A DNA stretch of 64,000 nucleotides from Claveliimonas bilis (GTDB lineage: Bacteria; Bacillota; Clostridia; Lachnospirales; Lachnospiraceae), in contig NZ_AP024845.1 in the NCBI RefSeq assembly GCF_020892095.1, positions 868,001 through 932,000 of the forward strand. Reading direction: 5' to 3'. The first letter of the stretch is position 1. Every line of letters begins with the position of its first letter. The notes under the pieces are model-generated. The model saw nothing but the letters and a program-made list of their open reading frames with translations. It searched no databases and had not been told where the DNA came from. Positions 22,195 to 33,498 of this stretch are shown piece after piece. Position numbers and translations under genes: made by a program.

Positions 22195-22424
22195 AAAAAA
22201 AGTCGCCTCCTTTTCGTACTTTTTCACTTCAGTACGACAAGCGGTGACTGTACACTCTCCCGTGTGTGTCGTGAGAAACTCACACGTTGTTACTGCATTT
22301 CAGCAGCTGTTATAGTAGTTTCGTACAGTGACTTGTCGCCAGTTTCCTAACTTGACATTCGCTCCACGGAAAACCTGTCACTTGCGGACAGCAACCTCAC
22401 GCTTCACAGCTATCATGTCACAGC
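22195..22424 (-). promoter_or_regulatory. Structured 230-nt 5' leader of the S10 operon
   Basis: Between the promoter and rpsJ the minus-strand transcript can form a long-range helix: CGACAAG and ACTGTAC (22324-22346) pair with GTACAGT and CTTGTCG (22236-22255), a bulge separating the two halves. The enclosed region holds an AACAGCTGCTGAAATGCAG hairpin and a GTGTGAG/CTCACGAC hairpin. This is a typical shape for a ribosomal-protein autoregulatory leader; the ligand (L4 or S10 itself) is not identifiable by eye. Confidence 0.6.
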
Positions 22425-25171: not shown

Positions 25172-25253
25172 GTTTACATGGAGATGTCAAATCGGGGTGG
25201 CATCTCTGTAAAAGTTATAGTATTTATTTATCTAGAGATTGGAGGAAAATTTT
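25172..25253 (+). promoter_or_regulatory. 5'-end hairpin leader of the TSUP permease, with an alternative pairing near the ribosome site
   Basis: The transcript would begin with a hairpin: TTTACA-GGAGATG pairs with CATCTCT-GTAAA (25172-25213) around the loop TCAAATCGGGGTGG. The 3' arm ATCTCT can instead pair with AGAGAT at 25234-25239, directly beside GGAGG (25241). The two pairings are mutually exclusive, so this could be a small translation switch. Not a class I recognise. Confidence 0.45.
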
Positions 25254-26144
25254 ATGTTACTGTTTCTTCAGATTTTATTCGGCGTTCTGGCAGCCGGAAC
25301 AGGTATCGGACTTATCGTCGATATCGGAAAGAATCGTATGGATGAACTCAAAAACGCTACCGGCAAACAGTGGGCATCCGGTTTCGCTGTAGGTATTGTC
25401 GCTAACTTCCTTGACACTCTTGGATGTGGTTCCTATGCACCATCCACATTCATGTATAAATTATTTAACCAGATTGATGATATCAACATCCCTGGAACTC
25501 TGAATGTTGGTGATACCTTCCCGGTTATCTTCGAGGCATTCATTTTCACAGCTTCTGTAGATGTTGATCCTGTGTTCCTTTTGATCATGTATGTGTGTGC
25601 TGCAGCAGGTTCTTTCGGATTTGCCACCATCGTTACAAAATGGCCTCGTAACAAGATCCGCTGGGCTCTTGGAACTATCATGATTCCGCTTGCAATCATC
25701 ATGCTTTGCAGAAATACAGGATGGGGACCGTTCGGTATGATCGGAACAGCTACAACACTGACTGGCTGGCAGTTGATCGTAGCTGCAGGTCTTAACATCC
25801 TGTGGGGCGCTCTGATGGATATCGGTTTCGGTCTGTATGCACCTTGTATGGCTACCTGCCTTCTGCTCGGTGTTGATGCAACTGCAGCTTTCCCAGTATT
25901 CATGGGATCCTGTGCATGTCTGATGCCGGCTTGCTCTATCGAGTTTATCAAGACCAAACGTTACGATGTTCCTCACACAGTTGGTAACGCAATCGGCGGA
26001 TGTATCGGTGTATTCATTGCATGGAAACTTGTTACATCTCTTCCGATGTTCTGGCTGATCAACCTGGTTTGTGTTGTTCTTCTGTGGACTTCCTATACAC
26101 TGATCAGTGCAGCTGTAAAGGACAAAAAAGCGGGAGTTGCTTAA
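25254..26144 (+). CDS. TSUP (TauE/SafE-type) permease
   Basis: 296 residues, about eight membrane helices in two related halves: GVLAAGTGIGLIVDI and FLDTLGCGSYAPSTFMYK in the first, ALMDIGFGLYAPCMATCLLLGVD in the second. The duplicated GxYAP motif is characteristic of TauE/SafE proteins, which move sulfite, sulfonates or other organic anions. The ATG at 25254 is 8 bp after GGAGG; the in-frame TTG five codons upstream overlaps that site. Substrate unknown; the nearby proline reductase and selenium genes do not settle it. Confidence 0.88.
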   Translation: MLLFLQILFGVLAAGTGIGLIVDIGKNRMDELKNATGKQWASGFAVGIVANFLDTLGCGSYAPSTFMYKLFNQIDDINIPGTLNVGDTFPVIFEAFIFTASVDVDPVFLLIMYVCAAAGSFGFATIVTKWPRNKIRWALGTIMIPLAIIMLCRNTGWGPFGMIGTATTLTGWQLIVAAGLNILWGALMDIGFGLYAPCMATCLLLGVDATAAFPVFMGSCACLMPACSIEFIKTKRYDVPHTVGNAIGGCIGVFIAWKLVTSLPMFWLINLVCVVLLWTSYTLISAAVKDKKAGVA

Positions 26145-26981: not shown

Positions 26982-27010
26982 TTGACACACAAAAAAACTG
27001 GTGCTATATT
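26982..27010 (+). promoter_or_regulatory. Strong promoter of the structured RNA
   Basis: Perfect TTGACA (26982-26987), 17-bp spacer, TATATT (27005-27010). The predicted start, about 27016, coincides with the first base of the RNA's first long helix. Confidence 0.85.
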
Positions 27011-27015
27011 ATAAC

Positions 27016-27312
27016 CATCTTAAACAACAACGAGAGCAAAGGCGGTCTCCCAAAGGGATGAGACTGCTATATTTTTAAAGTAGAGCTGTTTAAGATGATA
27101 GCAATGGTTGCTATTGCAGTTAATCCAGGGCCGAACGTTTTCCCCAAGAGCGTTCCTGCCCGGGTAACTACAATTTATATATACTTTTCTCCAACAGGAG
27201 ATCTTCCCCAGCTTTGTATATATACAAAACTGCAATGCAACGAGGAAAAACCTCTCAATGACATACCAAAAAGAAAGGGCACGACATAAGTTTATGTCGT
27301 GCCTTTTCTTTT
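27016..27312 (+). ncRNA. Free-standing ~300-nt structured RNA of unassigned family
   Basis: Domain 1: CATCTTAAACA (27016-27026) pairs perfectly with TGTTTAAGATG (27087-27097), enclosing hairpin GCGGTCTC/GAGACTGC (27042-27067). Then hairpin ATAGCAA/TTGCTAT (27098-27114). Domain 2: ATTGCAGTT (27113-27121) pairs with AACTGCAAT (27228-27236), enclosing GGGC/GCCC-type and TATATATAC/GTATATATA hairpins. The end is a perfect 12-bp terminator, GGCACGACATAA/TTATGTCGTGCC (27278-27303), plus TTTTCTTTT, which also serves the converging prd operon. A 64-codon frame at 27095 lacks a ribosome site and any protein-like features. I see no hallmarks of tmRNA, RNase P, SRP or 6S RNA; a raiA-type or lineage-specific RNA is possible. 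Structure is read by eye; identity is unknown. Confidence 0.75.
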
Positions 27313-27355
27313 ATGAAGATTTATTCTTCAAGCTGCACGATAATAAAAATCACAG

Positions 27356-28737: not shown

Positions 28738-29463
28738 TTAGATCTTAGCAACATATTCGTATGGCAGCGGTACGATTGTTCCAGGTGTGGAAATCTTTAC
28801 TAACTGCTCAAGTGTAGCTTTCACAATCTGTGTCTGCTGTTCTACGTTGTGAGGACCACCCGCATTAGCACCCATAGGTACCAACGGAGCTACCGCACGA
28901 GGTGTACCGGTCTGACGAACAACCGGAGGAAGAGCTGCAATAATAATTGTTGGGATTCCAGCTTCTTCAATCGCTCTCTGCACCAATACTGCAGAGCGGT
29001 GGCAGGTACCTCATCCAGCTGTGAGGATAACTGCATCTACGTCCTCTTCTTTGAACATCTGTGCGATGGCCGGACCAGTTTCACCTTTGAATTTTTCCTG
29101 GTTTCCGCCGCCGCCCATGAATCCTGCATGAACCGGAGCACAAGCTCTGATAAATCCTTCTGCAGCTAATTCGTGGATTCTGTCGATCGGGAACATACAG
29201 TTGATGTCTTTGTTAACATCACTGTTGTCGTATCCACCGTGTGAAACCATCAGCTCACTGGATGGTGTTGTGTTCTCTATTTTTCTCCATGTAAAGTCAC
29301 CAGCAAGATTGAATCTTTCCTGATCTTTCTTATGAACACCAGCAGCTGTTGCAAGAGCGATAGACATATCTTTCAGCTCTTTTGTTACAGGAGTCCATAC
29401 AGCCGGAGGAGTAATAGGAACGAAAATTTCAGATTGTAAACCTTTAACAACCGTTAAACTCAT
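28738..29463 (-). CDS. prdB: PrdB: selenocysteine subunit of D-proline reductase (in-frame UGA)
   Basis: 241 residues when the UGA at 29013-29011 is read as selenocysteine (residue 151). The frame continues unbroken on both sides, giving VILTAG-U-GTCHRSAVLVQRA, the known active-site context of PrdB; a plain reading would split it into 150- and 82-residue pieces. Upstream parts include HGGYDNSDVNKDINCMFPIDRI and GFMGGGGNQEKF. PrdB with the two PrdA-derived chains reduces D-proline to 5-aminovalerate, the oxidative sink of Stickland fermentation. A hairpin for insertion lies just downstream (28972-28998). The start overlaps the preceding small gene by ATGA. tRNA-Sec, selA, selB and selD are all within 15 kb. 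Confidence 0.97.
28972..29013 (-). promoter_or_regulatory. Bacterial SECIS hairpin of prdB with its UGA codon
   Basis: UGA at 29013-29011; 12 nt later CGCTCTGCA (28998-28990) pairs with TGCAGAGAGCG (28982-28972), two bases bulged, apical loop GTATTGG. Spacing and size fit a SelB-binding element. Confidence 0.75.
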
Positions 29464-33400: not shown

Positions 33401-33498
33401 TGGCGGAGGCATGTGGGAATCGAACCCACCCAGGACGCTCCTAACGCCCAACACTGGTTTTGAAGACCAGGGGGCACACCAGTCACCCAACTACCCCC
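33401..33498 (-). tRNA. selC: tRNA-Sec (anticodon UCA)
   Basis: 98 nt on the minus strand. Anticodon stem-loop CTGGT-CTTCAAA-ACCAG with anticodon TCA; long variable arm (GGGCG/CGTCC); T arm GTGGG-TTCGATT-CCCAC; acceptor 5' GGGGGTA pairs with TGCCTCC; discriminator G and encoded CCA. The long extra arm and UCA anticodon identify selenocysteine tRNA. It lies 162 bp upstream of prdC on the same strand, with its own promoter. Confidence 0.97.

Follow-up and report, generated by a model that had tools for sequence, protein, structure and literature searches.

Positions 27016-27312 of the window (the whole 64,000-nucleotide stretch of Claveliimonas bilis DNA analyzed here) form a gene with its own promoter, a strongly folding transcript and a terminator, and the sequence evidence identifies its product as a structured non-coding RNA, some 200-300 nt long, that is present in one copy and has a transcription unit to itself. 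It represents a new RNA family within a kind already known, that of orphan structured RNAs, the supplementary lists of large screens lying outside this assignment. Few orphan structured RNAs are this large and this well conserved, and some of them have turned out to be ribonucleoproteins (RNPs) or global regulators. Here, a folded RNA beside amino-acid-fermentation genes is kept as one copy across a branch of gut Lachnospiraceae and has no match in Rfam. With 67 sequences, a covariance model, a clade boundary, two probable losses and named carriers in hand, its function is directly testable.

The promoter scan and the promoters of the homologues place a sigma-70 promoter, TTGACA-N17-TATATT with a TG extension, at 26982..27010 of the plus strand. 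Specifically, the -35 element TTGACA (26982-26987) is followed by a 17-nt spacer and the -10 element TATATT (27005-27010), which is preceded by TG, and 11 of 12 positions agree with the consensus. This site ranks top among eight promoter-like sites within 2.5 kb, where shuffled sequences give 5.5 sites. On a promoter score of 13, in which TG counts one point and TATATT is rated equal to TATAAT, the best promoter-like match reached 12 or 13 in 64 of the 67 homologous sequences, the best match being picked in each and the count carrying no chance control; L020, L077 and the truncated L055 scored lower. At the other end, the intrinsic terminator (27272..27316, plus strand), with a flanking A-run and U-run, is common to the RNA and the convergent prd operon. 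Its stem changes on both sides in 10 of 13 pairs, and the region folds below -8 kcal/mol in all 67 sequences. The consensus terminator scan listed the hairpin on the minus strand only; on the plus strand the stem continues into the U-run.

The stretch 27016-27320 has a minimum free energy of -109.1 kcal/mol, compared with -62.9 ± 4.8 for its shuffles (z = -9.7; none of 100 as good). The predicted fold contains an 11-bp helix (27016-27026/27087-27097), a second closing helix (27107-27119/27230-27241), nested hairpins and the terminator hairpin. With the terminator removed, the cores of all 60 aligned homologues still folded with z below -2 (average -5.2, with 40 shuffles per core). The sequence-only reading had proposed a structured RNA that stands alone between its own promoter and terminator; the promoter, the nested helices and the terminator were all recovered where it had placed them, and the homologues and their covariation support the proposal. 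Of the two outcomes that it named as refuting, a lack of covarying pairs and a protein frame at 27095-27289 shared across species, neither was observed.

The predicted anatomy comprises a variable 5' domain, a core built around a three-way junction, a pair of C-rich segments that lie exposed, a tail that does not vary, and the terminator, all on the plus strand. The conserved core, the stretch modeled as R1, spans 27104..27271 and is defined by alignment, covariation and the covariance model. It is closed by P1 (27107..27241), in which 27107-27119 pairs with 27230-27241; here 99.7% of the alignment cells are paired, and 4 of 11 pairs show changes on both sides. The P2/P3 hairpin, with approximate ends at 27124..27165, shows such changes in 13 of 14 pairs. 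The P4 arm AUAUAC/GUAUAU (27177..27221) is near-invariant, with both-side changes in 0 of 6 pairs, and by alignment encloses a CUCC/GGAG hairpin (27189-27200) and a conserved UUCCCCAG segment (27204-27211).

Covariation was analyzed on 60 aligned cores. From the 67 sequences, 65 cores were excised (L021 and L055 were dropped, their core start being unrecognised), and L023, L024, L025, L068 and L085, which are shortened or carry an insert, were also left out of the alignment. Five helices with 44 pairs in total make up the consensus, and at least one double change was seen in 27 of these pairs. Paired cells amounted to 95.8%, compared with 89.3 in shuffles, and double-change cells to 223, compared with 64.7; none of 500 shuffles, which carry no correction for relatedness, was as high. 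Structures slid by 1-3 columns, a control that retains kinship and tends to favor an alignment-derived structure, gave at most 52 double-change cells. Covariation is strong in P2, P3 and the terminator, and P1 varies little. Since the P4 pairs hardly vary, covariation is no proof of P4. Taken over all 60 cores, this strong covariation argues for a structured RNA. Among the RNAs kept out of the alignment, that of Hespellia stercorisuis (L085, 7229-7517) has an insert of about 65 bases in the P4 arm, the remainder being intact, and those of L025 (1411-1579), L068 (5598-5766) and L023 (1447-1619) are shortened, with cores of 169-173 nt versus about 224, and retain the tail and, partly, the C-rich loop.

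The C-rich loop UUUCCCCCAAG and the internal segment AUUCCCCAGCUUU are mostly unpaired by prediction. The mean unpaired probability is 0.66 for the loop region of P2/P3 (UUUUCCCCAAG, 27138-27148; 59 sequences), 0.68 for the UUCCCC segment and 0.65 for the tail (60 sequences each), compared with 0.31 for the rest; in the thermodynamic folds, the value exceeds 0.5 in 98%, 73% and 68% of the sequences, respectively. The 3' tail CCUCUCAAUGACAUACCA (27251..27268) is identical in 60 of 60 aligned cores, and most bases of its motif ACCUCUCAAUGACAUACCA lie outside the consensus helices. The CCUC at its start is mostly paired (unpaired probability 0.10), and a small predicted GAGG-AAAAA-CCUC hairpin (27242..27254) reaches into the tail, the CCUC being invariant and the GAGG missing from some homologues; as with P4, covariation is no proof of this hairpin. 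The invariance in the 60-core set is partly selection, because most cores were collected by the tail motif. Among 24 loci of other genomes found without requiring it, the tail was exact in 22 and not found within three substitutions in L026 and L027, a check that is not wholly independent because several of the weaker DNA matches cover the tail.

The 5' domain (27016..27097), closed by the 11-bp helix, is part of the predicted minimum-energy fold and varies or is missing in other species. It is thus optional: elsewhere the promoter lies near the core, or the gap holds other sequence. The first closing helix of the sequence-only reading is present in the fold, as part of a domain that differs much between species. 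Within this domain lies a hairpin, GGCGGTCTCC...GAGACTGCT (27041..27078), followed by a U-rich run. A CCAANGGCGGTT...-like hairpin was recognised in 28 of the 67 sequences, and 26 of these 28 have at least five T in the 8 nt 3' of the stem, a count made without a chance control; the hairpin therefore looks like an attenuator. In lineages that carry it, premature termination may tune the output of the full RNA. In many species, ACCAA followed by a terminator-like hairpin and a U-run occurs twice per transcript, before the core and at the 3' end; the first copy in the window (27016-27097, compared with 27250-27316) reads GCAAA in place of ACCAA.

The RNA was found in one part of the Lachnospiraceae. 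When 299 genomes of the family were searched at the DNA level, 25 gave matches at E <= 0.001, the own genome counted. Across the GTDB genome collection, the 19-mer ACCTCTCAATGACATACCA has 64 exact occurrences, in Lachnospiraceae genera or loosely classified Clostridia or bacteria records. After removal of duplicates, 67 distinct sequences were obtained, the window included, and the named carriers include Coprococcus comes, Faecalicatena contorta and Claveliimonas monacensis. R1, which covers the core without the terminator, matched 32 of 397 family genomes, once each; the matches fall in 26 of 334 genera. Among 291 sampled Clostridia genomes, it found the window's own match only; these large searches used stricter filters, which lose some weak matches. 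A mobile-element or phage origin was rejected, as no DNA match was found in phages or plasmids and the 19-mer was absent from the viral contig collection. A precursor at the S10 loci of other Lachnospiraceae was rejected as well: with the model run unfiltered on the DNA ahead of the S10 leader at 40 loci, including one short region, the best score was 11.7 bits, E 0.5.

A tree of the L3 and L4 proteins from 66 genomes (29 carriers and 37 non-carriers; three carriers, the divergent G287 among them, were omitted because L3 and L4 were missing from their fetched DNA) places all carriers in one clade, with a split support of 1.000. Presence of the RNA requires three changes on this tree, compared with 21.8 in shuffles (minimum 15). 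Most likely, the family arose once, at the base of this Lachnospiraceae clade. Two clade members are without the RNA, namely L313 (G123) and L314 (G141). We searched the prd flanks of RNA-less genomes, 16 regions from 15 prdA carriers and G352 (some being the prdA flank only and one reaching a contig end), and found only a remnant in G141. This element (L237, 2546-2650) consists of ACCTCTGATTGACATACCAAAA and a terminator, with no core (18.9 bits, E 0.0098). It agrees with ACCTCTCAATGACATACCA at 17 of 19 bases and lies between prd and a LysR-like gene, matching the position of the RNA. It is most likely a decayed copy, and it could conceivably be a minimal functional form instead. In G123, nothing was recognised. 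The two genomes probably represent two natural losses, one with a remnant.

We considered whether the transcript might be something already known in kind, a message or a member of a described RNA family. The open reading frame 27095-27289 has no Pfam match and is not conserved across the homologues, which bears out the earlier judgment that no plausible protein is encoded. A 24-codon frame in the core (M/L-V-V-I-A-V...S-P-K-N...V-N-S-N stop) looks protein-like and reads well in many sequences; of the 60 cores, 20 begin it with ATG and 14 with TTG (34 together). However, the remaining 26 lack a start codon at this position, and in 15 of the 60 no ATG, GTG or TTG is in frame either at this position or further upstream before a stop is reached. 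The diversity by codon position is flat (0.24, 0.29, 0.25), a net frameshift is present in 15 of the 60 cores, and L037 and L056, which are 99.1% identical, differ by a 1-nt indel within the frame. A small-peptide mRNA is thus very unlikely. Rfam 15, run over the whole window, gave two matches at gathering level, the S10-Clostridia leader and tRNA-Sec, neither of them at the RNA. At 27016-27312 no Rfam model matched, those of tmRNA, SRP RNA, RNase P RNA and 6S included, consistent with the earlier statement that their hallmarks are missing; at E <= 10, the 25 matches belong to implausible families only, most of them over the terminator hairpin. An orphan class, either raiA-type or new, had been suggested; the new class is favored, and raiA (RF03072, gathering score 101.3 bits) does not appear among these 25 matches. 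It also matched 0 of 338 family genomes, the own genome included, a weak absence because no control genome matched. The RNA was ruled out as the genome's 6S, whose one match (RF00013, 54.4 bits, over the cut-off) sits elsewhere, at C1:619777-619959. A divergent member of raiA/ModT, 6S or another known family would share the free-standing gene, the SigA-type promoter and the 200-300 nt length; the missing gathering-level match, the separate 6S and, for what it weighs, the raiA result make this quite improbable.

The likenesses are instructive nonetheless. 6S RNA is single-copy, structured and of similar length; it is a long bulged hairpin, whereas the new RNA is not. RsaE is an Rfam family, and no RsaE-type Rfam match was found at the RNA. 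raiA/ModT is likewise free-standing, structured, about 200 nt or more in length and driven by a SigA-type promoter. ModT has a consensus of eight helices and two pseudoknots, and a longer isoform that the authors ascribe to readthrough (PMC11706538); in contrast, the new RNA has no covariance-model match, shows one three-way junction in a comparison made without pseudoknot prediction, and was found in one Lachnospiraceae clade only. In RoxS/RsaE-type small RNAs of Firmicutes, conserved exposed C-rich segments pair with G-rich targets, as PMC5419742 and PMC8216469 describe. The new RNA similarly has conserved C-rich segments, unpaired by alignment and by predicted probabilities, and differs in its larger size, covarying multi-helix core, long invariant tail and lack of a family match. 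The accessible parts of the literature, including PMC8040213, PMC8632094 and PMC11109978, do not describe the RNA, the supplementary lists (thousands of candidates in PMC8040213) being outside this scope.

The genomic neighborhood was surveyed at 32 loci, with flanks of about 9 kb, some ending at contig ends, and with the window and L145 from the same species. An S10-operon gene was found in the flanks of 26 loci and prd-cluster genes in 27 (a blast cluster that may include glycine-reductase kin); both were found in 21, and no locus had neither. At 19 of the 26 loci, the RNA and the S10 operon are transcribed divergently; at the other 7, the operon follows downstream with the same orientation. 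The position next to the proline reductase operon, as originally described, stands; its relevance beyond shared gene order is not supported, and the S10 ribosomal operon is also nearby. Since the RNA usually lies near both, the prd adjacency is probably inherited gene order.

As the best mechanism we tentatively put forward, with less than even confidence, a trans-acting riboregulator that uses the exposed C-rich and tail segments. Because the promoter is near-consensus, the RNA would be abundant, and because it is free-standing and single-copy, it would act in trans through these segments; by analogy with RoxS and its kin, the C-rich segments would pair with mRNA. The screens for G-rich targets used long complements and showed no excess over controls. 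In 22 carrier genomes, the reverse complement of the tail (14-mer, at most one mismatch) occurred 4 times outside the RNA gene, compared with 11 for the reversed control, and the complement of the loop 12-mer occurred once in carrier genomes, compared with 5. TTGAGAGGT stood directly upstream of ATG at 44 sites versus 58 in the control, and the 30 readable sites of the 44 showed no recurring gene. In the own genome, one site with three mismatches coincides with the presumed ribosome-binding site ahead of a gene that resembles a regulator; it was unseen among the sites read in relatives. An invariant tail without a visible antisense target poses a sharp question about the role of the RNA. Moreover, its 18 nt are more than a seed usually spans, and a site for protein binding would explain them equally well. 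We therefore rank the riboregulator only slightly above a scaffold or decoy RNP in the manner of 6S, CsrB-type RNAs or OLE, in which the tail and C-rich segments would dock a protein, the ribosome or polymerase and mRNA pairing would not be the job of the RNA. This possible alternative is favored by a tail identical at every base in all 60 cores (most collected by it) and exact in 22 of the 24 loci found otherwise, by its position mostly outside the consensus helices, by the missing excess of complementary targets, and by the G141 remnant, which keeps most of ACCTCTCAATGACATACCA and the terminator with the core gone; against it, shared gene order is all that links any gene to the RNA, and the partner protein is only putative. 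More doubtful is a stable clade-wide RNP whose invariant tail and C-rich segments would bind a core cellular protein, making it a housekeeping regulator of the standing of 6S or ModT, invented by one gut Lachnospiraceae branch and kept single-copy.

Regulation of proline reduction (Stickland metabolism) is suggested by the prd-cluster genes at 27 of 32 loci and by prdA, which is over the cut-off in 28 of 32 carriers versus 15 of 365 non-carriers. However, as the sampled carriers form one clade, this association is confounded by descent and is not independent evidence; prdA stays below the cut-off or is missing in 4 of the 32 carriers, in G353 it lies on a different contig from the RNA, and G123 and G141, prdA carriers within the clade, are without the RNA. 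This role is thus unlikely. A cis-acting element of the S10 operon is the least probable reading of all. It would fit the S10-operon gene at 26 of 32 loci and the seven in which the RNA lies upstream in the same direction, but transcription runs away from the operon in the other 19, 0.3 to 6 kb separate the RNA from the nearest S10-operon gene recognised, the RNA ends in a terminator of its own, shuffled segments pair with the S10 leader region as well as the real ones do, and S10-Clostridia leaders occur in 183 of 200 family genomes, most of them without the RNA.

Several neighbors of the RNA were characterized along the way. The S10-Clostridia ribosomal leader of the window lies at 22333-22415 (minus strand; 92.4 bits), ahead of the S10 operon. 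An in-frame TGA interrupts PrdB (28738-29463, minus strand); with this codon translated as selenocysteine, the protein scores 407.7 bits against the PrdB model, over the cut-off, and a tRNA-Sec at 33405-33498 is consistent with this reading. Additionally, a TauE-like membrane protein gene at 25239-26141 (plus strand; Pfam 26.8 bits, below the cut-off) belongs to a cluster (C10) found near the RNA in 18 of the 32 loci.
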